From a virus: a stretch of 64,000 bases of DNA. This document shows, one piece after another, positions 3,710-59,620 of this stretch (the stretch's first letter is position 1; each line of letters begins with the position of its first letter). The notes beneath the pieces were generated by a model. It ran no database searches. It was not told the origin of the DNA and saw only the letters and a program-made list of their open reading frames with translations. Made by a program: the position numbers and the translations under genes. The DNA is taken from positions 41,909 to 105,908 of the IMG/VR virus record IMGVR_UViG_3300047666_001259; one strand, written 5' to 3'.

Positions 3710-4019
3710 CATCATCTAGCTCCTTCTTTATAGTTTCCATATATGATGCATCGAAAACATCATAAAAGAATCCTATCCTCATTGTGTGATAGGAGTTGTT
3801 TATAATATTTTTAAATTCTCTCTGATTATCTTGCTCATACCTTTGAAATGAATCCTTAGAATCTAGGACTTCAACAGGAAATCTATGAAAAAATAACTCA
3901 AAATGATCTCCACATTCTTCTTGTAATTCAACCATTTCATTATAAGTACAGTCCGTAGGCTTAACGGTAGAGCCTAAAGTCAAACAAAAAATCAACAGTA
4001 TAAAGATTGATAGCTTCAT
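3684..4019 (-). CDS. Secreted or envelope small protein with signal peptide
   Basis: A 111-residue protein beginning MKLSIFILLIFCLTLGS, a clear signal peptide with a hydrophobic core and no charged residue for 15 positions. The mature part is acidic with three cysteines. Its ATG overlaps the TAA of the gp6-like gene as TAATG, so it is probably translated with the baseplate operon. A lysis, periplasmic or superinfection role is possible but not shown. Confidence 0.65.
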   Translation of the reverse strand: MKLSIFILLIFCLTLGSTVKPTDCTYNEMVELQEECGDHFELFFHRFPVEVLDSKDSFQRYEQDNQREFKNIINNSYHTMRIGFFYDVFDASYMETIKKELDDVIACQGKQ

Positions 4020-5890
4020 TATAAAGAAGCTACACGGATTGAAACATCTTTTGCTACATCCATAATCTCGAACATCACCAAAGGTAAACCTCTTACTGAA
4101 TTGTCTAGTAAGTCAATCTCAGTAATATAACCCCCTGTTTCAGGAATCAATTGTGTGTTTGATCCAGCTTGTGGGTGAAGAGTTTCTGAATAACCACCAT
4201 CTTGCATGTTGAAGAACTTAATCTCGACAACGTTAATCACGCCCGGTACCTCTCGGAGGGTGTCTACAATTTGAGATACGTAAATATGCTCATTCATTTC
4301 CCATTTTTCTACATCAAAGAAATCGTTAATCTCTTTCACTGTAGCTTGCTTAATCTCTTTTGAATTAAAGTTATCTCCATCAATCAACAGATCAACATTT
4401 ATTCTAAGATTTATAATCTTTCCATCGTTGATCTCAACAAAGTCGTTTATCATTCTGTAACGAGAAATGTAATTAATCAAATTGTCTTTAATTCTATCGG
4501 TTGAAGGAGATACTAGTTTTCCATTTCCAGCTCTGGAAATGATATGCATGATTACCTTATTCTCATCAACTTCAGCTGCAATTCTAAATGGTGATCCGAA
4601 TTTTCCATCAATCTGATAGGCACGAGATGTGTAATCCCTGAGAGTAACACATCTCTCTTGAGCTGCGTGGTTAGCTGCTGTGTTGCTGACGATTTCTTCA
4701 ACAGAAGGCAATCCTCTACCCCCAAGAGCTGGAAATGGGTTACTTACTCTTGTTGAAGCTACGACTGCATCGTTAGTTCCTTGGTCGATTCCCGGGTTGG
4801 TTGAGTTGATATTACTAACCTCCTGTAAAACATTTGCCCCAACATTAGAAGTCAAACCCCCACCAGCTCTATACTTTACATAAACAGTACAATTTGCAGG
4901 TAATTTTTTTCCTAAAGCCTTATTATCTAGTACATCTCCAATATTGATCGCACTCTGAGGCTTGAAAGGATTTTCAACCCCAATCAATGAGTCCAAATAA
5001 TTCTCATAAGCATCATACGACTCTACGCCACCACCAAAAGTAATCCTACAAGAACCGTCTGCTAAAAATTCTTTCTCAAACCTTCTAGGAACTTCTTTCC
5101 AATATCCTTGGAAATTTCCATTTGCATCTTGAACATCTGATTGCTTAAAAAATAAATCATCAGTCGGAAGAAAGTCTACTTCATACCATTTAATCGAATC
5201 GTTGTTGAAATCTGAAAATGTTGGATTAGAATCCAACCCTAACTGCTCGTATATGATTATAGAATCTACATGAAGAACATTCTTATCAGGGATATTGAAT
5301 TTATAGAAAGGCTTATTGCCATCAGTAATTTCTCTTTTTATGATCTTAGTAACCCCTGCCTTAACCTTTTCTCTCTTTACGATTTGATATCTAAGAAGTT
5401 GTTGGTTCTGGTTTAAAACCTCATTAATAACTCTGTTTGGTATTCCGTCTTCCGAGAAGTCAGAAGAAAAATCTATATCTTCAAGAGTTTCAAAAACTTG
5501 ACCACCACCAGCAACCCTTAACCCTGAACGGTATATTGGTAAATATGAAGTGTCTGGCCCGTCAGAGGTAGCTGGTACATCAATGATTATATCAACAACT
5601 GTTACCGCAGGGCGTACACCCGGCACCCTATAACCTTTGGTTTTTGCCAACCTATAAGCATCAACTCTTTGACGAACTCCGTCTAAAAACAGTGAGTTGA
5701 ATTTTTTGTCCGCAAGGTGAGAAAGAAGATCACCAACATAGGCATTCAAGTCGAGTATTGCCATGCCCGGTGATGCTACATTGAAATCTTGCCACTCATC
5801 TGGATAAAAGGCTTTTAGATAATTCTCCAAATCTGTTCTAATGGAAGAAAAATTTCTACTTAAATAATTAACTTGTACTTGATCTGACAT
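4019..5890 (-). CDS. Baseplate wedge protein, T4 gp6-like
   Basis: 623 residues, close to T4 gp6 (660). The N-terminus has the family pattern: NYLSRNFSSIRTDLENYLKA, then the conserved segment around residues 38-60 (ASPGMAILDLNAYVGDLLSH) and DAYRLAKTKGY. The C-terminal half carries a J-domain-like segment (DLLIDGDNFNSKEIKQ, then VPGVINVVEIKFF). gp6 dimers link baseplate wedges and hold the tail in its pre-contraction state. It lies directly downstream of the gp25-like gene, as expected for a wedge operon. Confidence 0.9.
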   Translation of the reverse strand: MSDQVQVNYLSRNFSSIRTDLENYLKAFYPDEWQDFNVASPGMAILDLNAYVGDLLSHLADKKFNSLFLDGVRQRVDAYRLAKTKGYRVPGVRPAVTVVDIIIDVPATSDGPDTSYLPIYRSGLRVAGGGQVFETLEDIDFSSDFSEDGIPNRVINEVLNQNQQLLRYQIVKREKVKAGVTKIIKREITDGNKPFYKFNIPDKNVLHVDSIIIYEQLGLDSNPTFSDFNNDSIKWYEVDFLPTDDLFFKQSDVQDANGNFQGYWKEVPRRFEKEFLADGSCRITFGGGVESYDAYENYLDSLIGVENPFKPQSAINIGDVLDNKALGKKLPANCTVYVKYRAGGGLTSNVGANVLQEVSNINSTNPGIDQGTNDAVVASTRVSNPFPALGGRGLPSVEEIVSNTAANHAAQERCVTLRDYTSRAYQIDGKFGSPFRIAAEVDENKVIMHIISRAGNGKLVSPSTDRIKDNLINYISRYRMINDFVEINDGKIINLRINVDLLIDGDNFNSKEIKQATVKEINDFFDVEKWEMNEHIYVSQIVDTLREVPGVINVVEIKFFNMQDGGYSETLHPQAGSNTQLIPETGGYITEIDLLDNSVRGLPLVMFEIMDVAKDVSIRVASL

Positions 5891-23123: not shown

Positions 23124-23353
23124 TGGCAAAAAAAGATGAATCATGGAAAGAGGAATGGAAAGACATGCCTGAATTCCACCAAGAAGATTTAACCTCTCAC
23201 AGAAAAGTTGTTATTCATTTTAGAAATGACGAGGATGTGGAAGAATTCGCAAATCTTATTGGTCAGAAATTAACTCCGAAACAAAAAAGCACTTGGTTTC
23301 CTCACATGGAGCCAAGAAGATATGCACACTTAAGATATACTGATGAATCCTAA
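23123..23353 (+). CDS. Small conserved partner of TET-associated glycosyltransferase
   Basis: 76 residues with WKEEWKDMPEFHQEDL, VVIHFRNDEDVEEFANLIGQ and STWFPHMEPRR. I recall this pattern in phage and prophage gene clusters beside TAGT-type glycosyltransferases and DNA-modification genes; it may be an accessory subunit. One-base overlap upstream and 11-nt overlap downstream with the TAGT gene. Confidence 0.55.
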   Translation: MAKKDESWKEEWKDMPEFHQEDLTSHRKVVIHFRNDEDVEEFANLIGQKLTPKQKSTWFPHMEPRRYAHLRYTDES

Positions 23354-24197
23354 ATATCCCATTTACATCCCATCCAAAGGAAGGTGGGAAACAAGGAAAA
23401 CAGTAAAGGCTCTTGAGGCAATTAATGTGCCTTACAGTATTGTTGTAGAACCTTTTGAGTATGATTTGTATTCGGCAGTTATTAATCCTGACAATATTCT
23501 GGTATTACCAGAAAATGACATGAAATTAATAGGGTCAAGAAACTGGATAAAAGCACACTCAATTGAAAAGGGTTTTAAAAGACACTGGCAACTTGATGAT
23601 AATATTGAACAGTTCAATAGGCTTAACCAAAATTTGCAAGTAAAGGTTTCTTCTGGAACAGTTTTTAGGTGTATTGAAGACTTTACCGATAGATATGAAA
23701 ACGTAGCTTATTCAGGTTTTCAATATGACCACTTCGCAAAAGCTAAAACAAAAATGTCGCCCTACATTTTAAACACAAGAATTTACTCTTGTACGCTAGT
23801 AAATAACAGCGTACCGTTTAAATGGAGGTCAATATACAATGACGACACAGATGTTTGCTTACAAGCTCTTAAAAGCGGTTGGTGTACAATATTATTTAAT
23901 GCTTTCCTACAATGTAAAGCAACAACGATGACCGTCAAGGGAGGAAACACGGAAGAGTTATACTTGATTGAAGATGGTCGAAAGAAGATGGCTCAAGCGT
24001 TAGTGGATTTACATCCAGATGTTGCGAGAGTAGCGTGGAGGTTTAATAGATGGCAACATGTTGTAGATTACAGTTCATTTAAGTCAAACAAACTAAATAA
24101 AAGAGAGGGTTTAGTAGTTCCCGACAGAGTGAATAACTACGGAATGGTCTTGAGAGATTTTGGAACTCCAAAGAACGTTCCTGAACAATATAAATAA
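23343..24197 (+). CDS. TET/JBP-associated-type glycosyltransferase (TAGT)
   Basis: 284 residues. The N-terminus shows the family pattern: YPIYIPSKGRWETRKT, IVVEPFEYDLY, NILVLPEND, SRNWIKAHSIEKGFKRHWQL followed by DDNI (the metal-binding acidic motif). A second acidic patch (YNDDTDVCLQAL) lies near residue 165. This GT-A-like family accompanies TET/JBP dioxygenases and other base-modification genes, and is proposed to glycosylate modified bases. No TET gene is in this window, but thyA and the dNMP kinase are adjacent. Confidence 0.75.
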   Translation: MNPKYPIYIPSKGRWETRKTVKALEAINVPYSIVVEPFEYDLYSAVINPDNILVLPENDMKLIGSRNWIKAHSIEKGFKRHWQLDDNIEQFNRLNQNLQVKVSSGTVFRCIEDFTDRYENVAYSGFQYDHFAKAKTKMSPYILNTRIYSCTLVNNSVPFKWRSIYNDDTDVCLQALKSGWCTILFNAFLQCKATTMTVKGGNTEELYLIEDGRKKMAQALVDLHPDVARVAWRFNRWQHVVDYSSFKSNKLNKREGLVVPDRVNNYGMVLRDFGTPKNVPEQYK

Positions 24198-29322: not shown

Positions 29323-29835
29323 ATGACAAAAGAAATTCAAGAAAATGCTCAAAAAGTAATCGATGCTGGAATAGCACACGATGGGCAGAGACCTACTATG
29401 TTTGACTCACTAGACTACGCTCTAGAGGGATATGTGATTCTGACTAATGGGGATTTTAGGTCTGTTTACAACAAACAGACCATTATCGAAACCCTCTCTA
29501 AAGAATATCAGGAAGATTGTGACCCTGAAGATGATCCGATGGAGATGGCGTATGAGTGGTTTTATTTCAATATTCTCGGAACAGGTCTTTCCGAAGGGAC
29601 TCCAGTATTTATGGAAGGGTTTTATGATGACCTATTTTCTGACCTAGAATTATCCGAAGACGAAGACCTCTTCATGAAGACAATAGTGGAGGATGGTGTT
29701 TGGTCTATTTTCGAATGTGGAGCTGAAAGTTTTGAGTATGATTACCTATTGGTTTTTGATGCTAAAAAAATGAAAGCCCTCGATATTTCTACCGAAGGCT
29801 TTCCAGATTGTAGTGCTTTTCTTCAAAGGTTATGA
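29323..29835 (+). CDS. Hypothetical acidic protein, 170 aa
   Basis: Very acidic (runs such as DCDPEDDPMEMAYEWF and DLELSEDEDLF), as in DNA-mimic or host-takeover proteins, but no homology is claimed. It is a lone plus-strand gene with a host-type promoter, so it is probably expressed early. Overlaps the convergent gene at 29830 by six bases. Confidence 0.6.
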   Translation: MTKEIQENAQKVIDAGIAHDGQRPTMFDSLDYALEGYVILTNGDFRSVYNKQTIIETLSKEYQEDCDPEDDPMEMAYEWFYFNILGTGLSEGTPVFMEGFYDDLFSDLELSEDEDLFMKTIVEDGVWSIFECGAESFEYDYLLVFDAKKMKALDISTEGFPDCSAFLQRL

Positions 29836-31377
29836 AAGTAACTCTGTAAACCTTTGAGCTTCAGCCTGAGCTAACCATTTACCCATTTCTGGGGTTCCAT
29901 TAGTAAGCCCTGCTGCTTCCGCATCCTTACCACCTAATTTAGGTAGATTGATGTAGTCCATAAAAGCTTCAATCATCTTTGGATCACCCATTCCTAACAG
30001 CCCAGCTTTTGCTATCTGCTCAAAAGAAGCAGACTGTTTGTCTCTCTTTGATTTAGCATTGTTTGGGTTTAGGGATTTTAGGTCAACCAAATAAGAGACC
30101 GCCTTAGCAAAATCCCCAGAGTACTTTGCAGCCATTAAAGCCTTGAAAAGCTTATTTGGGTTGTTGTTTCTAGCAATCGAAGCCAAAACAACAACCTGAT
30201 CGTGATCATTTACCAATTTCTCTTTAACATTAACGTTAATGTTAGGGAGAACCTGTGGCATCATTCCAAAATCCTCAAGCATATCCAAGTAGTTTTGGAC
30301 AGACTTAGCTTGTTGTATTCCCTTCAGAAACTCAGCCATAATAGCTTCAGCTGGCTGACCTCCGAGAGAATTGTTCTGACGGATAGAATCAGCAGTCGCT
30401 TGATCCAAAGGGTTACCAACACGAGCAGCAAACCTAATTGCCCTCATAACTCTAATTCTGTGTTCATCAAACCTTTGAGTAGGATCACCTACAGTTCTTA
30501 CAATTCCGTTCTTGATATCCTCGATACCACCAACGAAGTCAATGATTTCTTTAGAATCAATATCATAGTATAAGGCGTTGATCGTCAAATCACGTCTGTA
30601 AGCATCTTGGTCAATGGTTGAGTATGCAGTTTCAGGTTTAGTGTGATCATCTCCGATGTCAGTTCTAAACGTAGCAATCTCATACAATCCGATATCAGTA
30701 TTAGGAATATGATCAGGAGTGGCTACGTGGACTACGGGGAATGTAGCACCAGCTTCTTTGATTCCGTACCCACCAACTGCATTAAACATAGCCAAAATCT
30801 CTTGCGGCTTGGCATCAGTTGCTAGATCGTAATCTTTAGGTTGCACCTTATTTAAGGCATCTCTAACTGCCCCTCCAACAACATACAGTTCAAATCCAGA
30901 CTTCGTAAAAATCTGGTTAATCACCAACAGGTCATTCGGTAAAGATAGCTCAAAAGGCACTCTTATTTCGTTTTCTATTTTCTTCAAAGCTTGTTCCATT
31001 AAATCTATTTCTTCAATTGTTGCTTCCACCTCTCTTTCTTGTGGAAGAACCTTAATCCCTTTCTTCTCTAGGAAAGCAACTAAAGCTACCGTCAAAGGTA
31101 CGGAAATTACTCCACCCGCCAAAAGACCTAAAGCTTTTCCTACGTCACCAGTTTGCCTTTTAAGAAAAACCTTCTCTTGTTTAGTGACTTTTTGTCTTTT
31201 GAGGATTCTCATGAGAATCTCCATTGCTTGCTTAGTCTCTTGAGTTTCTCGTTTAATAACATCAGGGGCTTGTTTCTTAACATCCTTAGTTGTATCCCAA
31301 GCCTTATTGACTCCCTTTCTTATTTTCTGAAAAACATTCTCCTTAACGAGCTGTTTTAACTGTTCTTCTTCTTTCAT
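29830..31377 (-). CDS. Poly(A) polymerase / CCA-adding enzyme-like protein with LETM1-like N-terminus
   Basis: 515 residues. Residues about 155-300 are the class II nucleotidyltransferase head: LYVVGGAVRDALN, KDYDLATDA (metal-binding D182, D184), then DAYRRDLTINALYYD and FVGGIEDI. Residues about 300-340 (HRIRVMRAIRFAARVG) are the RNA-binding neck. Residues 45-112 form a separate module with a hydrophobic helix and LEKKGIKVLP that recalls LETM1-like segments found in phage virion proteins. It could repair tRNA 3' ends or tail RNA; packaging in the virion is possible. Located opposite the early gene at 31435. Confidence 0.75.
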   Translation of the reverse strand: MKEEEQLKQLVKENVFQKIRKGVNKAWDTTKDVKKQAPDVIKRETQETKQAMEILMRILKRQKVTKQEKVFLKRQTGDVGKALGLLAGGVISVPLTVALVAFLEKKGIKVLPQEREVEATIEEIDLMEQALKKIENEIRVPFELSLPNDLLVINQIFTKSGFELYVVGGAVRDALNKVQPKDYDLATDAKPQEILAMFNAVGGYGIKEAGATFPVVHVATPDHIPNTDIGLYEIATFRTDIGDDHTKPETAYSTIDQDAYRRDLTINALYYDIDSKEIIDFVGGIEDIKNGIVRTVGDPTQRFDEHRIRVMRAIRFAARVGNPLDQATADSIRQNNSLGGQPAEAIMAEFLKGIQQAKSVQNYLDMLEDFGMMPQVLPNINVNVKEKLVNDHDQVVVLASIARNNNPNKLFKALMAAKYSGDFAKAVSYLVDLKSLNPNNAKSKRDKQSASFEQIAKAGLLGMGDPKMIEAFMDYINLPKLGGKDAEAAGLTNGTPEMGKWLAQAEAQRFTELLS

Positions 31378-31422
31378 ACGTATAAATACTTTAAAGTATT
31401 CTTTGTTAAAACGAAAATTTTG

Positions 31423-31430
31423 TACATTTG
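31423..31430 (+). promoter_or_regulatory. Bacteroidota-type promoter TACATTTG, near-leaderless
   Basis: TACATTTG ends four bases before the ATG at 31435, with TTTG 17 nt upstream. Transcription would begin at or within the start codon. The box-to-start sequence TTTGTTGCATGATAGA is identical at the 44992 gene. Confidence 0.6.
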
Positions 31431-31434
31431 TTGC

Positions 31435-31593
31435 ATGATAGAAATATTAGAAAAAATTGTACCTTCGCAAACAGGCGACCCTCTCGGTCAAGTTATTGAT
31501 TTATTTGATGACCTTACGGATGGAGAAAGAGTCATAGTGATGGATGGGTTTAACCAAAGAACAGGAAAGAAGCTAGAAAATTCAGAAAAATAA
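31435..31593 (+). CDS. Small acidic protein, 52 aa
   Basis: Begins MIEILEKIVPSQTGDPLGQ; stop and next ATG share TAATG at 31593. The promoter is so close that the mRNA is probably leaderless. Not recognised. Confidence 0.6.
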   Translation: MIEILEKIVPSQTGDPLGQVIDLFDDLTDGERVIVMDGFNQRTGKKLENSEK

Positions 31594-34007: not shown

Positions 34008-35282
34008 ATGACTCACAAGGAGCTAACAAACATCGAAGGAAGGTATACGCAGTCAACTATTGATGACGATTTATATAAGCTGAACATGCAGTACGCAGCC
34101 TTTGTTCTTTTTCCAAGAGCTAAAGTTCAATATAAGTACATCCTTCGATCTGATGTTAAATTCCCAAAAGGATTCGGAGCCGTCCTGAGAGACATCATCC
34201 ACCAATATTCTGGACTTACTGCTCCAGAAGGTGCAGAAGAGTTTCTTAATAGAAGATGTGGGTATTTACCTCCTACTTTTATAAACTTCTTATTGAATTT
34301 CCGTTTCAACCCTTCTGAGGTTGGAATTATTCAACATAAAGATGGATCAATTGAAATTGATATCGAAGGATACTTTTTCTCAGCTATTAGATGGGAAGTA
34401 ACTTTGATGGCAACAATATCTGAGCTTTACTTCCTAATGACGGGAGAGGCTGATAAGATTGATATCGAAAGAATGAACAATTCTGGAGAAAAAGCAAGTC
34501 ATCTTAGATTGCATGCAATCAAGTTTGCTGAATTTGGAACTCGAAGAAGATTCTCTTATAAAAACCAACTTCATACAGTTAAAGAATTGAAGAGAACTGG
34601 TTGGGACAGTTTTATCGGAACATCTAATGTTCACATCGCCATGATGGAAGATTTAACTCCAATTGGAACTCAAGGTCATGAGTGGTTCATGTTTCACCTA
34701 GCCATGTATGGTGCTAGAATGGCAAATGTCATGGGAATGAGAAATTGGGCTGATGTCTTTAATGGAGACAACGGAATTATCCTTCCTGACACATTTACTA
34801 CTGATGAATTCTTAAAAGTATTTGACAAAAGAATGTCTAAGCTTTATGATGGATCAAGATGGGATTCTGGAAGCTATAAGGATTTCACCGACAAATTCGT
34901 TGAACATTACAAAAAATTCAAAATAGATCACACTTCTAAACAATATGTTTACAGTGATGGGATTAACTCTTTACAAAAGTGTTATGATATCGTAAGCTAC
35001 GGAAATAAAGTTCACGATATTCCTAGATCAAACTTACCTTTAGGTATCGGAACTTGGTTTACCAACGACTTTGAAGGAATCACTCCTTTGAATCAAGTAA
35101 TCAAAATGTGGGCAGCACAACCAATCGAAGACGGAAGGTGGATTGATGTTTGTAAAATTTCTGACTCTTTCGGTAAAGTTACTGGAGAGAAAGAAGAAGC
35201 GGACTTGACTATGAAGGTGCTTGGGGTTAATTTAGAAGACCTTCAGAAAAAGAGTGAAGAAGCAGAAGTGTCAGAAGTATAA
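34008..35282 (+). CDS. pncB: Nicotinate phosphoribosyltransferase (PncB)
   Basis: 424 residues. Characteristic segments: DDDLYKLNMQYAAFVLFP near the N-terminus, AEFGTRRRFSYKNQL (about 175-190), GTSNVHIAMMEDLTPIGTQG then HEW, whose histidine is the phosphorylated catalytic residue, and WDSGSYKDF (PRPP-contacting region). The enzyme makes NaMN from nicotinic acid and PRPP with ATP hydrolysis, the first Preiss-Handler step. The Preiss-Handler assignment (not NAMPT) rests on EFGTRRR and PIGTxxHEW. First gene of the NAD operon. Confidence 0.85.
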   Translation: MTHKELTNIEGRYTQSTIDDDLYKLNMQYAAFVLFPRAKVQYKYILRSDVKFPKGFGAVLRDIIHQYSGLTAPEGAEEFLNRRCGYLPPTFINFLLNFRFNPSEVGIIQHKDGSIEIDIEGYFFSAIRWEVTLMATISELYFLMTGEADKIDIERMNNSGEKASHLRLHAIKFAEFGTRRRFSYKNQLHTVKELKRTGWDSFIGTSNVHIAMMEDLTPIGTQGHEWFMFHLAMYGARMANVMGMRNWADVFNGDNGIILPDTFTTDEFLKVFDKRMSKLYDGSRWDSGSYKDFTDKFVEHYKKFKIDHTSKQYVYSDGINSLQKCYDIVSYGNKVHDIPRSNLPLGIGTWFTNDFEGITPLNQVIKMWAAQPIEDGRWIDVCKISDSFGKVTGEKEEADLTMKVLGVNLEDLQKKSEEAEVSEV

Positions 35283-35692
35283 TGGAAAAAATGGGAAGCA
35301 AATTAACACATAGATTTACAGTATTTCCTCAAGACACCAACAATCTCCAAACTTTATTTGGAGGAAAATTGATGGCTGAGATGGATTTAGCAGCAGCAAC
35401 TCTTTGTAGAAAGCTTTTGATAACATCTGAAGCAGAAGGAGCGGTTACTGCATCTTTCTCTAGGATTGATTTTACAGCACCTGCTCATGTGGATGACTTA
35501 ATCGAAATCAAAGCTGAGTTAAAGATGATTGGAAAATCTTCATTGAGGATACGGTTGGTGGCTTCAAAAGAAGACCCAGACGGAAAGGTAATAAAAATTG
35601 GGAGTTCTAACGCAACTTTTGTATCTTTGAAAGAAGGGAAATCTTTTCCTCATGGAATTAACTGGAACAATGTATGTTCCGAATACTTTTAA
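35282..35692 (+). CDS. Hotdog-fold acyl-CoA thioesterase-like protein
   Basis: 136 residues. The pattern NNLQTLFGGKLMAEMDLAAA, TASFSRIDFTAPAHVDDLIE and IGKSSLRIRLVASKE matches single-domain YciA/acyl-CoA-hydrolase-type hotdog proteins; the catalytic Asp near position 40 (EMD) is present. It overlaps the pncB stop by one base and precedes nadD by 3 nt, so it is fully embedded in the NAD operon. A CoA-ester substrate is predicted from the family; its tie to NAD metabolism is unexplained. Confidence 0.75.
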   Translation: MEKMGSKLTHRFTVFPQDTNNLQTLFGGKLMAEMDLAAATLCRKLLITSEAEGAVTASFSRIDFTAPAHVDDLIEIKAELKMIGKSSLRIRLVASKEDPDGKVIKIGSSNATFVSLKEGKSFPHGINWNNVCSEYF

Positions 35693-35695
35693 AAT

Positions 35696-36334
35696 ATGAT
35701 TACAATAGGTTTATATTTCGGATCATTTAACCCGCTCACGAGAGCGCACTACAAAATTGCAGAACATTCTTTGACTCATTTGGATGAAGTTTGGTTTGTG
35801 GTTTCTCCCGCCAATCCTGATAAGGAAGCAACTGGAGAGTTAGAAGATGCTAGTCATAGGCTTGAAATGGTTAAAAGAACAGTGGATTTCTATAATGAAA
35901 ACAAGAAATCTGTAAACCTATTTGCTTCTGATGTAGAGTTTCATCTTCCTAACCCATCTTGGACTGATTCTTCAATTAAGAAGATTAAAGAAGAGCTTCT
36001 TAGAGATCGAGGTTTGAATGAGGGTGAATATGATCTTCGAATCATTTGTGGTCGTGACACTCACTACAGAATTCAAACTTGGAAGAACAAAGATTACATT
36101 ATTGACAACTGTAGTTTCTTGGTTTATGACCGTGCTGGAGTTGATTCAGTAGAAGACGAAGCTCTTCATCTAAAGAGTTATTATGTTAATGATCTTGGCA
36201 TCCTTCCAATATCTTCTACAATAGTCCGAGAGACTATTCATAAAGGAGGAGAAATATTTAATCTCGTCCCAGATGTCGTTGACTGTTACATTAGAGAGAA
36301 CGGCTTGTATCCTTACAAAACTAAGAAACGATGA
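35696..36334 (+). CDS. nadD: Nicotinate mononucleotide adenylyltransferase (NadD-like)
   Basis: 212 residues. Nucleotidyltransferase motifs: GLYFGSFNPLTRAHYKIAE (GSFxP and TxxH form of the first motif), ICGRDTHYRIQTW (substrate pocket) and LPISSTIVRETI (ISSTxVR). It adenylates NaMN to NaAD. The T in place of the first His of HxGH is a known variant. Between the thioesterase and an 87-aa gene, with four-base overlap to the latter. Confidence 0.85.
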   Translation: MITIGLYFGSFNPLTRAHYKIAEHSLTHLDEVWFVVSPANPDKEATGELEDASHRLEMVKRTVDFYNENKKSVNLFASDVEFHLPNPSWTDSSIKKIKEELLRDRGLNEGEYDLRIICGRDTHYRIQTWKNKDYIIDNCSFLVYDRAGVDSVEDEALHLKSYYVNDLGILPISSTIVRETIHKGGEIFNLVPDVVDCYIRENGLYPYKTKKR

Positions 36335-36594
36335 TCCCAATAGATATAGAACATGAACTCTATTATGATCGTGGCAAGCCTGAGTTAAGAGAGAGAACTC
36401 GTAATAGATTAATTAAGATGAAAGAGGTTGGGATGGAAGCATACCATAACTATCAATTCGGTTATGAAGGTGTGATGTCAGGTCTTTGGATTGAAAGAGT
36501 TTGGGGCTTTAGTGAAGAGAGATGGAATAAATACATGAAATGGGCAACGGACTTAATTAAAGAGAAAACAGATGAAGCTACTAAGGTGTCCTAA
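36331..36594 (+). CDS. Small hypothetical protein in NAD operon, 87 aa
   Basis: Charged, helical protein (RTRNRLIKMKEVGMEAYH; WGFSEERWNKYMKWATDL). Its ATG overlaps the nadD stop and its end overlaps the NadE fusion by 23 nt. Could be a stabilising partner of the operon enzymes; unsupported by homology. Confidence 0.55.
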   Translation: MIPIDIEHELYYDRGKPELRERTRNRLIKMKEVGMEAYHNYQFGYEGVMSGLWIERVWGFSEERWNKYMKWATDLIKEKTDEATKVS

Positions 36595-37930
36595 TTGTAA
36601 TGACGTTATCCGTTTAGTTCATATTGAATGGAGAACTTGTGAGTGTGGAGGTTGTGGAGGTCAATATAATAAAGACCTCATGAGCGCAACCATCGGAGGG
36701 AAATGCGATGTAATTGGGCTATCAAATTTATTCTTCAACGAAGACTTTAGAAAAAAGACTTGGGAAGAAAAAGTGGAATTCAGAAAAGAAATTAACCATT
36801 ACCCCGCTGAGATTTGGTTCGGAGAGATGCAAGGCGACAATCAGATCATTCGTATTGAAGACCCTAAAGGTGGGAGAATTGAAATGGATGTAGAGTTTGA
36901 CCCAGAGAGTGAAACTACTAAATCAATCATCACAGACAAAAGAAATTATTTTGTTAACCTTGCTGACGATACAAAGCCGAAAGAATTAATTATTCATAAT
37001 AAAATGGTTCCGTCTTTTAGAGATGCTGAAATGAGATTGGGAGGAAAGTCTTCCGCTGTTGAAGCCATAACAGATAGAACAAAAGAACAAAAGAACAATA
37101 ACATGGAGACAATCAATTACGAAGAAGTAGCAACCCATATTACCAAGTGGTTGAAAAATTACAGCGTAAAAGCTGGGGCTAAAGGATATGTTCTTGGTAT
37201 TTCAGGAGGAGTGGATTCAGCGGTAGTTTCTACTTTGTGTGCCAGAACTGGACTGCCTCTAACTTGTTTGGAAATGCCGATCCACCAAAACGAAGAACAT
37301 GACACTCGTGCTGCAAGACATATTGATTGGCTTGAAGAAAATTTTGATTACGTAACAAGAGAAAGAGTTGATTTGACAGCAACTTTCGATTTGTTCATGA
37401 ACTCAAACAGTATTATTCAAGGTGGGGACATGTCCGCTGTTCGGCTAGCAGGAGCCAACGCCAGAAGTAGACTTAGAATGGTTCAGCTTTACTTAATAGC
37501 TTCAATCAAGAATATGTTGGTCTGCGGTACGGGAAACAAGGTTGAAGATTTTGGTGTAGGATTCTATACTAAGTACGGTGATGGAGGAGTTGATGTAAGT
37601 CCAATTGCAGACCTTTTAAAGACAGAAGTTTGGGGATTGGCAAAACACCTTGGAATAAACGAAGAAATCGTTTCTGCCATACCTTCAGATGGTTTGTGGG
37701 GAGATACTAGATCAGATGAAGATCAGATTGGAGCCTCTTACCCAGAGCTTGAATGGGCAATGGCTTATATCGATAAAAATTACACTGACATTTCAATGGG
37801 GGTTCATCCTTACAATGATGTTACGGAAAGACAAATGGAAGTAATTGACATTTATAGAGGATTCAATTCTCGAAACCAACACAAGATGGTAGAGATTCCC
37901 GTTTGCGATGTTTCTAAATTTAGAAATTAA
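36572..37930 (+). CDS. nadE: Zinc-ribbon fused to NH3-dependent NAD synthetase (NadE)
   Basis: 452 residues. Residues 1-45 carry CPNCN and CECGGCGG, a zinc-ribbon pattern followed by an unknown 110-residue domain resembling stand-alone phage proteins. Residues about 178-452 are an NAD synthetase of usual length (275): the ATP loop SGGVDSAV (about 211), CGTGNKVEDFGVGFYTKYGD and VSPIADLLKTEVW. It amidates NaAD to NAD+ with ammonia; no glutaminase domain is present. An in-frame ATG at 37103 (residue 178) could also produce NadE alone. Last step of the Preiss-Handler route. Confidence 0.85.
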   Translation: MKLLRCPNCNDVIRLVHIEWRTCECGGCGGQYNKDLMSATIGGKCDVIGLSNLFFNEDFRKKTWEEKVEFRKEINHYPAEIWFGEMQGDNQIIRIEDPKGGRIEMDVEFDPESETTKSIITDKRNYFVNLADDTKPKELIIHNKMVPSFRDAEMRLGGKSSAVEAITDRTKEQKNNNMETINYEEVATHITKWLKNYSVKAGAKGYVLGISGGVDSAVVSTLCARTGLPLTCLEMPIHQNEEHDTRAARHIDWLEENFDYVTRERVDLTATFDLFMNSNSIIQGGDMSAVRLAGANARSRLRMVQLYLIASIKNMLVCGTGNKVEDFGVGFYTKYGDGGVDVSPIADLLKTEVWGLAKHLGINEEIVSAIPSDGLWGDTRSDEDQIGASYPELEWAMAYIDKNYTDISMGVHPYNDVTERQMEVIDIYRGFNSRNQHKMVEIPVCDVSKFRN

Positions 37931-44092: not shown

Positions 44093-44992
44093 TTAACTCA
44101 TTGTAATAGGGGCGATATTTTTGTTAAATTTGTCCCAAAGCTTCTCAATCAACTCACTTTTTGTAACCTCAGTGTTTCCTTTTTTCTTAAGAGTAATCAC
44201 CTCACAACCAGTTAACCCGTATCTGTTTCCGCTTTTGTAAGGATTTTTTCCTACACTCAAATTGTAATCAAAATAAAACAAATCTTCCCCCTCATCGTCA
44301 AGGTTTTTTTCCACTCTATCTGATATATCATAGCATATCACTTCTGGAACAAAGTAATTCCCTTTTCCATCAGTTACGAATTCATTGTGAGGAATAGATT
44401 CAATTTCTTTAATGTATTCAGTGAAGACTTCTTTGGCTGACTTAAATTTATAGTCCTCATCTTCTATAAAATCAACATTGTAATCTCTGGACTCTATATT
44501 TCCTTCTTCGTTGAATTCTATAAAACAACATCCGTATCCAATTGTTGTTTCAAATTCAAAACGGTCACAACCATCGTAAGAGCTATATCTTTCAGACAAG
44601 TAATGAATGTTATCCAATCTACCCTCTTGATTTTCTCCAAGCCTTCTTATCTTTCTTACAAACTCACCCTGCTTGCTAGGGATTCCTTCTGAGTGAAACC
44701 TATTGAAGTATTGACAAACATCAAACTTCTTGTTGATCAAATAGATTTTTGTCTTTTGCTTTAACTCTTCAATTTCTTCTTTCGGAATAACCACTGAATT
44801 ACCATCAGGGTCTTGACATAAAACTTCTTTACCACTCAAGTCCTGAATGACTTTCAAATTGATGTGATGCCTATAATTAAATGTTTCTGGAGTCTCAATA
44901 GCCTTAATTTGCTCCACTAATGCTGGGTCGAGATTTTTGTAAACACTATGAGCGTCTGAATCTTCTTTTATCTTTTCTAATAGTTCTATCAT
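44093..44992 (-). CDS. Hypothetical protein, 299 aa, leaderless start
   Basis: I choose ATG 44992 (MIELLEKIKEDSDAHSV), four bases after a TATATTTG box, rather than a codon at 45007 inside the box. Acidic alpha/beta protein with ETPETFNYRHHINLK, a Cys-rich GCDRFEFETTIGYGCC segment and a C-terminal EKLWDKFNKNIAP. Not recognised. Divergent from HD-Pnk. Confidence 0.6.
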   Translation of the reverse strand: MIELLEKIKEDSDAHSVYKNLDPALVEQIKAIETPETFNYRHHINLKVIQDLSGKEVLCQDPDGNSVVIPKEEIEELKQKTKIYLINKKFDVCQYFNRFHSEGIPSKQGEFVRKIRRLGENQEGRLDNIHYLSERYSSYDGCDRFEFETTIGYGCCFIEFNEEGNIESRDYNVDFIEDEDYKFKSAKEVFTEYIKEIESIPHNEFVTDGKGNYFVPEVICYDISDRVEKNLDDEGEDLFYFDYNLSVGKNPYKSGNRYGLTGCEVITLKKKGNTEVTKSELIEKLWDKFNKNIAPITMS

Positions 44993-44996
44993 GCAA

Positions 44997-45004
44997 CAAA
45001 TATA
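44997..45004 (-). promoter_or_regulatory. Bacteroidota-type -7 box TATATTTG, near-leaderless
   Basis: On the minus strand TATATTTG ends four bases before ATG 44992, through TTTGTTGCATGATAGA, the same junction as at 31435. Confidence 0.6.
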
Positions 45005-45029
45005 CAAAATTTACGTTAAGTATAGTATT

Positions 45030-48360: not shown

Positions 48361-48921
48361 ATGGAAGAAAACAATAACATAGAAACTCAATCGGAAGAAA
48401 ATAATCTTCTATCTGAGACTCAGGCGCAAAAAAACAACCAGTTGGTTACGCAGTTAAAAGATGCCTTGTTAATTAATCAAGTTTTAGCCTCATCGGTTGA
48501 AATTCTTGGTGAAGCTCATTTGACAAAAAATGAGAAATACGAAATGATTAGAAACCTGAATGAAGCCTCAACAATTAGTGAGGTTCAAACTCGTGCCAAT
48601 ATCATTAGAGAACAATTTGGAATTCAATCTCAGTCTCAAAACTTTAGAGATATTCAAGAGGACGATAGCTTTTGGTCATCTAGCTTTAGAAATGAGCTAG
48701 ACAATTACTATGATCTTCATAAAGGGGTTAATGTAAAAATGACTCTAGCAGAAAGTTTGATTGAAGTTGAAAAATACTTCAAACTTCTTACGGAGTACGG
48801 TAAATCTAACGAGACCAATGTTCAAAGCATTACTGATAGAATTCTTGAACAAGAACCTAAAGCTAGAACTGGACTCGAAAGACTTAAAGGGCTAAACGTC
48901 TCGATTAACACCATTCAATAA
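48361..48921 (+). CDS. Hypothetical helical protein, 186 aa
   Basis: Acidic N-terminus (EENNNIETQSEENNLL), then helical segments (TQLKDALLINQVLASSVEIL; VEKYFKLLTEYGKSN). No domain. Seven nt after the envelope gene. Overlaps the convergent Adk-DHFR end by 17 nt. Confidence 0.55.
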   Translation: MEENNNIETQSEENNLLSETQAQKNNQLVTQLKDALLINQVLASSVEILGEAHLTKNEKYEMIRNLNEASTISEVQTRANIIREQFGIQSQSQNFRDIQEDDSFWSSSFRNELDNYYDLHKGVNVKMTLAESLIEVEKYFKLLTEYGKSNETNVQSITDRILEQEPKARTGLERLKGLNVSINTIQ

Positions 48922-50032
48922 AAGAGAAAGCATAATCGTGCTTTTCATCTTTTTCATGTTTTATTGGATCACCTGCTTTCAGCTTGAATTTATTCAGGTC
49001 TGGAAAAAAACTGTCTGCCTCAAATTCTCCTTCTACTTGAGTTTTATAAACTTTACTGATCAATCCCTTATCTAGGAATTCTGAGTATATTTGAGAGCCA
49101 CCACAGACCATAATCTCGTTCTGATCATTGTTCTCTGTCCAGTCAATCGATTTAGCTACTGCTTCTTCAATCGTGTGAACTACAGTTACGTTGTCCTTAG
49201 AACCTTTGTACATCCCACTTTTATCAAGGGCATCAATAGCTACTTGGTAATTTAGGTCTCTAGTAACAACAAAAATGTGTCTCTTTGGTAAATCGAGTCT
49301 CCCAAGAGATTCATAGGTCTTTCTTCCCATAACCAAAGCCTTCCCTATAGTGTTATCTTGGAAATACTTGAAATCATCAGGAAGATGCCATAAAAGCTTG
49401 TTGTCGCTACCAATCTCGTTATTCATCCCAGTAGCCACAATTGCAGAGAAGTTCGGCTCAAAGCCCATTGCTTTACGCACACGAGCATACTGCTGCTCAA
49501 TTGTGCCTGAAGCATCAATCTCAATAACTTTTCCTTTTCCAGCAAAATAATCCAGAATAGGTTTTGTTTCGTCTTCGTATTTTTTAAGTCTTCTTTTGAA
49601 GGTATCTTCCGTATCGTCCTCACGACCTAGCTCTTTAGCTCTGATGTTCATTCTCTCAATGAGAGTAACGTTATCAGTTTTGAAGTGAACAAGAGCTTCG
49701 AATGGCTCTCTACGGTTAAACATATATGAAGCAATATCTTTTGCTTGAGCAATAGTTCTAGGGTAGCCATCTAAAAGAAACCCTGCATCTACGTGTGGGT
49801 ATTCCATAATGAAATGATTCTTCACCATTTCGCTTATAATTTTGTCTGGCAGAAAAGTTCCTTTGTCTACTCCAATCAATTTAGCGTACTCGCCAATTTT
49901 AGTTCCCCTCTCCATTTCCTTTCGGATCATATCTCCAGTAGATAAGTGTTTGAAATTTTGTCTCTCCGCAAGTAGGTTGCAAATTGTTCCTTTTCCTGTG
50001 CAAGGAGCGCCAAAAATTAAGTAATTCTTCAT
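48905..50032 (-). CDS. Adenylate kinase-dihydrofolate reductase fusion
   Basis: 375 residues. Residues 1-190 are an adenylate kinase of short-LID type: GAPCTGKGT (8-16), STGDMIRKEM, LLDGYPRT (87-93) and ERMNIRAKELGREDD. Residues about 195-375 are DHFR: FSAIVATGMNNEIGSDNKLL, WHLPDDFKYF with the active-site acid at about 220, KALVMGRKTYESLG and IMVCGGSQIY. Together with thyA the DHFR completes the thymidylate cycle; the kinase makes ADP from AMP. I know of no such fusion as standard. Driven by a minus TATATTTG box at 50052. Confidence 0.9.
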   Translation of the reverse strand: MKNYLIFGAPCTGKGTICNLLAERQNFKHLSTGDMIRKEMERGTKIGEYAKLIGVDKGTFLPDKIISEMVKNHFIMEYPHVDAGFLLDGYPRTIAQAKDIASYMFNRREPFEALVHFKTDNVTLIERMNIRAKELGREDDTEDTFKRRLKKYEDETKPILDYFAGKGKVIEIDASGTIEQQYARVRKAMGFEPNFSAIVATGMNNEIGSDNKLLWHLPDDFKYFQDNTIGKALVMGRKTYESLGRLDLPKRHIFVVTRDLNYQVAIDALDKSGMYKGSKDNVTVVHTIEEAVAKSIDWTENNDQNEIMVCGGSQIYSEFLDKGLISKVYKTQVEGEFEADSFFPDLNKFKLKAGDPIKHEKDEKHDYAFSFIEWC

Positions 50033-58498: not shown

Positions 58499-59620
58499 AT
58501 GAGAAAACCCCGTTGGATAATTCAAGATAATCTCATTTCTGAGAATGATCGAAATGAACTACAAGAAGTCCTAGACTCTCTAGGGATACCTCATGTTGAG
58601 GTAGTTGTACTTCCGTTCTCGGAAGACCTTCCTGAATTCCCAATAGATGCCGAACACGAAAACATCTATTATGGATCGACCACGTTTATGAACAACCTCT
58701 ACAAGCAACTTAAGCCAATAGGTCTTTTCTATAACCACGAAACTTTCTCCATGAAAAATTACATGGAGAAATGGGGTGAGCATATGTTTAATCACGGTGC
58801 AGAATTTACTACAATTTCCCAATTCATCAGAAACACTGAAGATGATGATAAAACTAAAATCTTTATCAGACCAGACGGAGATGGAAAAGAGTTTGACGGG
58901 ACTGTGGGTAGCGCCAGAAGTGCCAAGCTCATGCTGAAAAATTTGCTTCACAACGACCCAAAAGTTGATAGTTGGTTTGAAATCATGGTAGGTGAAGCTT
59001 ATGCAATTAAACGAGAGTGGAGGATTTATATGGTTAACGGAGAAGCTGTCTCAGCGTCTCAGTATCGAAACAACCATACCCTCTCGAAGAACTCTGAAGT
59101 TTCTTACGAAATAAAGAAATTTGCTGAAGAAAGAGCAAAGGAGTACCAACCTCACGAAGTCTTTGCAATGGATATTTGTGAAGCCTTAGATGATGGTGAA
59201 TTAAAACTCTATATCCTAGAATGCGGGTGTATGAATTCGGTTGGATTCTACCACTGTGACAAGCAAGGGTATATAGAAGGGGTGACCAACTATATTGTCT
59301 CGAAACAAATTCCAGATCACACTCTTCTAATCAATGGTGAAGCTCACCCTTGGTCAGAAGAAATAGAAGTTATAGATGAGAGTGAGTTCGGAATGAACAT
59401 CACCATATGCTTCGACTGGTCTTATAGAAAAAGGCAGGTTGAAACAAGACATAACTGCACTGAGCTACATCACCTCTACCATAAAGAGAGAAGGGATTGG
59501 TTTCACCAACTTGATTCTGCTTTTGAAAGTGATATTCACGGAACAGGAGGAACGAAGAGTATGAATAAACTCAAATGGATCAAAGCGGAAAAAGCTTTAA
59601 TCTTACATAAAGAGTACTAA
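58499..59620 (+). CDS. ATP-grasp (R2K clade) ligase-like protein
   Basis: 373 residues. IFIRPDGDGKEFDGTV, IKREWRIYMVNGEAVSA, YRNN and YILECGCMNSVGFYHCD match the ATP-grasp catalytic elements of the R2K clade, found in phages and peptide-tagging systems. The C-terminal 100 residues (about 275-373) form an extra domain with a His-rich HHLYHKERRDW stretch. It could ligate an amino acid or peptide to a protein or small molecule. Last gene before a bidirectional terminator. Confidence 0.75.
   Translation: MRKPRWIIQDNLISENDRNELQEVLDSLGIPHVEVVVLPFSEDLPEFPIDAEHENIYYGSTTFMNNLYKQLKPIGLFYNHETFSMKNYMEKWGEHMFNHGAEFTTISQFIRNTEDDDKTKIFIRPDGDGKEFDGTVGSARSAKLMLKNLLHNDPKVDSWFEIMVGEAYAIKREWRIYMVNGEAVSASQYRNNHTLSKNSEVSYEIKKFAEERAKEYQPHEVFAMDICEALDDGELKLYILECGCMNSVGFYHCDKQGYIEGVTNYIVSKQIPDHTLLINGEAHPWSEEIEVIDESEFGMNITICFDWSYRKRQVETRHNCTELHHLYHKERRDWFHQLDSAFESDIHGTGGTKSMNKLKWIKAEKALILHKEY

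Follow-up and report, generated by a model that had tools for sequence, protein, structure and literature searches.

Depletion of NAD+ is widespread among bacterial defences, and the NADases that carry it out release nicotinamide, not nicotinate. The published answers of phages to it use nicotinamide or ADP-ribose directly. In NARP1 a phage-encoded set of two enzymes (Adps and Namat) regenerates NAD+ and was shown to counter NADase defence. In being a phage-encoded means of NAD+ regeneration NARP1 resembles the operon described here, from which it differs in that its enzymes use ADP-ribose and nicotinamide directly and include no PncB, NadD or NadE; the operon proteins, for their part, matched families other than Adps and Namat in the profile searches. 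The NARP2 or KVP40-type pair NadV and NadM, like this operon, reaches NAD+ by a phosphoribosyltransferase and an adenylyltransferase, but it takes nicotinamide via NMN, with no nicotinate involved and the NadE step unneeded. Iyer and colleagues (PMC7824862), who described the nicotinamide route, put forward NAD+ synthesis as a means by which jumbo phages withstand NADases, and the amidating salvage of the NARP2 or KVP40 type has likewise been proposed there as a counter to these enzymes; for the amidating route the idea is already published.

In Xanthomonas phage X1 genes named pncB, nadM, nadD and nadE have been reported, with the suggestion that they counter NAD+ depletion (PMC13384950). Since the NAD+ region of X1 itself encodes a nicotinamide phosphoribosyltransferase, an adenylyltransferase and NadE, and since X1 gave no match in the PncB search of phages, it appears to combine the amidating route with NadE. 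For Rheinheimera phage Barba19A, pncB and prs have been reported. No published account of a PncA-PncB-NadD-NadE set in phages was found in a literature search outside which most subscription papers lay, and the operon described below is real, well-formed and part of a recurrent variant of phage NAD+ synthesis that is apparently undescribed. The first-pass annotation had set its route apart from the ADPR-based NARP1 and the nicotinamide-based NARP2, which the family assignments bear out.

The operon and its enzymes

The window, i.e. the whole stretch of 64,000 nucleotides that was analysed, is positions 41909-105908 of a 105,908-base IMG/VR record. Because no terminase was found with phrog_2 in the recovered 106-kb record, which stops where the window ends, the record is taken to be a partial, incomplete tailed-phage contig. 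Positions 34008-37930 of the window hold five packed plus-strand genes, neighbours of which overlap or sit 3 bases apart:

34008-35282, + strand: PncB, nicotinate phosphoribosyltransferase (TIGR01514 above cut-off; PDB relatives; core motifs)
35282-35692, + strand: YciA-like hotdog acyl-CoA thioesterase (Pfam 4HBT, 5e-12), between PncB and NadD
35696-36334, + strand: NadD, nicotinate-mononucleotide adenylyltransferase (TIGR00482, 2e-29; motifs)
36331-36594, + strand: 87-aa protein (phrog_33482, 5e-21), between NadD and NadE
36572-37102, + strand: N-terminal extension in frame with NadE, with a CxxC...CxC zinc-ribbon-like start
37103-37930, + strand: NadE core, NH3-dependent NAD+ synthetase (TIGR00552 above cut-off; intact motifs)

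These coordinates and family matches confirm the earlier statement that PncB, NadD and NadE are consecutive with two small genes between them. The full three-step Preiss-Handler route that had been claimed is likewise present by family assignment, as a nicotinate phosphoribosyltransferase, an NaMN adenylyltransferase (slightly below its curated cut-off) and an NAD+ synthetase, and the locus is probably an operon with which the phage salvages NAD+ by the deamidating (Preiss-Handler) route. Judging from families and intact motifs, PncB would join nicotinic acid and PRPP to form NaMN, NadD would adenylate NaMN to NaAD, and NadE would convert NaAD, ammonia and ATP to NAD+. Promoter scans gave no signal above chance.

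The assignment of PncB is carried by a TIGR01514 score of 309.5 bits (cut-off 269.6), a match to Pfam NAPRTase (2e-40) and solved relatives in the PDB that are all NAPRTases, the best of which (2im5, 8e-77) we take to be the NAPRT of P. gingivalis. The NAMPT family phrog_448, by comparison, scores only 43 bits, so that the enzyme is of the NAPRTase type and not the nicotinamide phosphoribosyltransferase (NadV/NAMPT) that marks NARP2. Across 81 aligned phage PncBs H224, which is the GxHEW histidine, is invariant, and D21, Y23, K24, R179, R180, D261, D286 and S287 have few exceptions or none; the clearest departure of the window PncB in the motifs checked is S289, a position held by D in 62 of the 81 and by S in four.

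NadD scores 103 bits with TIGR00482, just below the cut-off of 112.5, and its highest-ranking models are those for NaMN adenylyltransferases; both nucleotidyltransferase motifs, (H/T)xxH and ISSTxxR, are present, and the best structural matches are solved NadD enzymes. The NadE reading frame (36572-37930) scores 161 bits with TIGR00552 (cut-off 63.7) and has intact P-loop SGGVDSA and GDG...D.xPI...K motifs. As it has no glutaminase domain, NadE should use ammonia. Its closest structure is 3fiu, which we take to be Francisella NadE, and this, together with the NadM-like adenylyltransferase of another phage (Phosso, see below), would favour a different order of reactions, in which NadE, as an NMN synthetase, would convert NaMN to NMN before the adenylyltransferase turns this into NAD+. 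The adenylyltransferase of the window is of the NadD type (TIGR00482), and NadD enzymes usually prefer NaMN, which argues against that order; we consider it unlikely here, even though Francisella NadE is reported to act first on NaMN. The order in which NadD precedes NadE is preferred.

The gene content given by the first-pass annotation stands, with the correction that the NadE reading frame is longer than NadE proper; the TIGR00552 match begins only at about residue 176. In the sibling contig L005 the first 177 codons form a separate reading frame with a stop just before NadE. Alignment of the two DNAs shows an extra copy of AACAAAAG in the window, an 8-bp tandem duplication, and this second copy removes the upstream stop, thereby joining the frames. 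NadE proper thus probably starts at 37103, and the in-frame fusion may be expressed or may be an assembly slip. The N-terminal extension had no family match in the profile searches of the operon proteins (including Pfam, PHROG and TIGRFAM) and no relative in the scan of IMG/VR viral contigs.

Neither the thioesterase nor the 87-aa gene has an obvious role in making NAD+, which counts against the operon reading. The thioesterase has an invariant Asp35 and structural relatives that are acyl-CoA hydrolases; its position between PncB and NadD is common to the window, L005, L007, L008 and L010 (the last three being more distant loci), but it is also present in phages without NAD genes. Its candidacy as a dedicated component of NAD+ synthesis was rejected as unproven, 30 of 33 thioesterase loci being without PncB, PncA, NadD and Nudix, with NadE present in only one of these 30. 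The 87-aa protein is probably accessory.

Recurrence and origin of the phage genes

A scan with a single protein returned one close relative, L005, which has the same gene order minus the 87-aa gene and is 88-91% identical to the window in PncB, thioesterase and NadD. With NadE as the bait, the order PncB, homing-endonuclease-like ORF, thioesterase, Nudix, NadD, NadE was found in L007 and L008, and PncB, thioesterase, NadD, NadE in L010, the PncBs of the three being 44-46% identical to that of the window. The three-enzyme core thus recurs in distant IMG/VR phages.

A PncB-alignment scan of IMG/VR gave 130 relatives, of which 80 were kept, and these together with two further loci collapsed at 90% identity to 67 distinct phage PncB loci. 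Within 8 kb of the 67 PncBs, NadE was found at 47, a PncA-like gene at 33, Nudix at 22 and NadD at 17. The control consisted of the 69 NadE loci of the earlier scan minus the two PncB loci among them (L061, L062); with the same profiles PncA, NadD and Nudix were found in none of these 67, the profiles having been trained on PncB loci, which they might favour, while still recognising canonical nicotinamidases. The [WF]PxHC motif is present in 27 of the 33 PncA candidates, many of which also have DWH and GLATDYCV, and two of three IMG/VR candidates tested (L115, L152) exceeded the nicotinamidase cut-off, with L087 falling slightly short. Only a few of the Nudix proteins are clearly like ADP-ribose pyrophosphatases, among which that of L093 exceeds the YffH/AdpP cut-off. 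A search of 25 such PncB records for terminase genes was positive in 11, and five terminase-bearing records (L016, L104, L111, L114, L118) have PncA, PncB, NadD and NadE together.

Isolated phages help settle that such loci are phage. In Sinorhizobium phage Phosso (PV764938, 469 kb), on which no paper was found, NadE, PncB and an adenylyltransferase are clustered as in this operon, along with a MutT-like Nudix and a PncA-matching hydrolase; unlike the window, Phosso has a NadM-like adenylyltransferase and more interspersed genes. Agrobacterium phage Atu_ph07 encodes PncB near a gene annotated as ADP-ribose pyrophosphatase and another that is PncA-like. The presence of the operon in one phage, as first annotated, is borne out, but this phage is not alone in it, the same enzymes occurring in many large phages. 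What emerges has the look of a deamidating module for NAD+ salvage that recurs in phages, standing beside the amidating routes NadV/NadM, NARP1 and NARP2.

Several further genes were seen in these neighbourhoods. A PRPP synthetase upstream of many PncB loci was considered and rejected, the ORF checked being a radical-SAM protein. Near PncA-PncB clusters such a protein is encoded repeatedly (9 of 121 neighbours have the Pfam match), with the copy in L089 (6687-7610) confirmed and similar ORFs in L087, L091, L094, L099, L102 and L104. In the huge-phage contig LR756501 an ORF that by eye is PnuC-like (nicotinamide riboside transporter) lies near PncB and NadE (L212, 11762-12331). CAKLQH020000008.1 (L210), filed as Acinetobacter phage MD-2021a, has a bacterial-looking chromosome around pncB.

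With regard to origin, the genes might be a recent chance capture from a host (a moron), or the contig a bacterial fragment mislabelled as viral. Mislabelling does occur, as the bacterial-looking INPHARED record of MD-2021a indicates, but the operon shares its contig with baseplate wedge genes, and the PncB sequences speak against either explanation. A maximum-likelihood tree places the window PncB, strongly supported, in a group with those of L005 and L086, and the ten bacterial sequences fall elsewhere. A scan of genomes for close relatives of PncB gave one bacterial relative, Blattabacterium, and the comparison was widened to its class (149 genomes), of which only nine have a PncB relative, at 44% identity or less. 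The E. coli-type PncB, NadD and NadE of the Preiss-Handler route in bacteria are of the same families and have the same motifs as the phage ones; unlike in the phage operon, no NadD, NadE or Nudix gene was found beside pncB at the loci of the sampled class (mostly about 1.5 kb on each side), and an adjacent PncA was found at only one, distant, bacterial pncB. Recent capture or mislabelling is thus highly improbable, and phage PncB looks like an old phage lineage.

Possible roles in counter-defence or metabolic supply

The likely benefit of the operon would be that the NAD+ pool is kept up in infection, including after defence NADases have cut NAD+; the nicotinate would have to be supplied by the medium, by the host or by host PncA acting on nicotinamide. 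It is plausible, if only by inference, that the operon may counter NADase defence. No isochorismatase/PncA or Nudix gene was found in the recovered 106-kb record, itself partial, and restoration of NAD+ after NADase action would therefore depend on nicotinic acid or on a nicotinamidase of the host; the nicotinamide set free by Thoeris or DSR, the defences named in the first-pass annotation, would be usable only via host PncA. An E. coli-type nicotinamidase model exceeded its cut-off in 13 of the 149 sampled-class genomes, a count that may miss other nicotinamidases and in a class that may not be that of the host. Neither a macro domain nor an NAD+-dependent ligase was found in this record, which therefore offers no local link to NAD+ conflict, and macro and NADAR domains were absent from the 25 commonest Pfam families of the neighbourhood survey.

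The pairing, within one phage, of PncA with a Nudix ADP-ribose pyrophosphatase was found in many relatives and not in this partial record. In such relatives Nudix could turn ADP-ribose into AMP and ribose-5-phosphate, a PRPP precursor, so that phages with their own PncA and Nudix could recycle both products of NADase cleavage. This leads to a reading of the loci as a module directed specifically at counter-defence, in effect a third route of the NARP kind regenerating NAD+ from both cleavage products, which has the enrichment of PncA and Nudix at phage PncB loci, the L093 Nudix and the precedents of NARP1, NARP2 and the jumbo-phage proposal (PMC7824862) in its favour; with PncA and Nudix missing from this record and few Nudix proteins clearly like ADP-ribose pyrophosphatases, we put it at somewhat below an even chance. 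The same somewhat-less-than-even standing is given to general metabolic supply, in which the operon would raise NAD(P) for the nucleotide synthesis and redox needs of a large phage, with no specific role in defence. That view is already published for jumbo phages, many phages, cyanophages among them, have NadE alone, and this phage has two enzymes that need NADPH, an adenylate kinase-dihydrofolate reductase fusion and, as identified by eye, a thymidylate synthase; supply alone, however, leaves unexplained why PncA and an ADP-ribose-type Nudix, which recycle NAD+ breakdown products, travel with PncB.

More tentatively still, large phages may share a third NAD+ reconstitution pathway, in which PncA and PncB-NadD-NadE rebuild NAD+ from nicotinamide while Nudix converts ADP-ribose to ribose-5-phosphate for PRPP, both NADase products being recycled, and of which this operon would be a shortened member leaning on host nicotinamidase. 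A recurrent deamidating route, if true, would mean that phages can also draw on nicotinic acid, and how well they fare would be linked to the nicotinamidase of the host or to the supply of the vitamin; Phosso on S. meliloti is an isolated phage in which it is testable.

The phage record and other genes

The baseplate wedge genes on the contig of the operon are T4-like (phrog_219, phrog_261) and mark the phage as contractile-tailed. The nearest matches of the baseplate protein, Flavobacterium phage immuto and a Microcystis phage, are 27-30% identical, and the host is perhaps one of the Bacteroidota.

The fusion mentioned above is a single protein (48905-50032, minus strand) matching Pfam ADK (7e-39) and DHFR_1 (4e-41). 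A TET-associated glycosyltransferase domain (TAGT, 2e-43) at 23343-24197 (plus strand) suggests DNA base hypermodification in this phage, and an ATP-grasp protein of the R2K clade is encoded at 58499-59620 (plus strand). The window has an intact gene for tRNA nucleotidyltransferase (29830-31377), which in L005 (2819-5237, minus strand) is in two halves with a GIY-YIG-like ORF (3720-4328) between them. Two opposite-strand ORFs of the window, 31420-31593 and 44093-45007, begin with the near-identical peptide (M/L)YICCMIE(I/L)LEKI.
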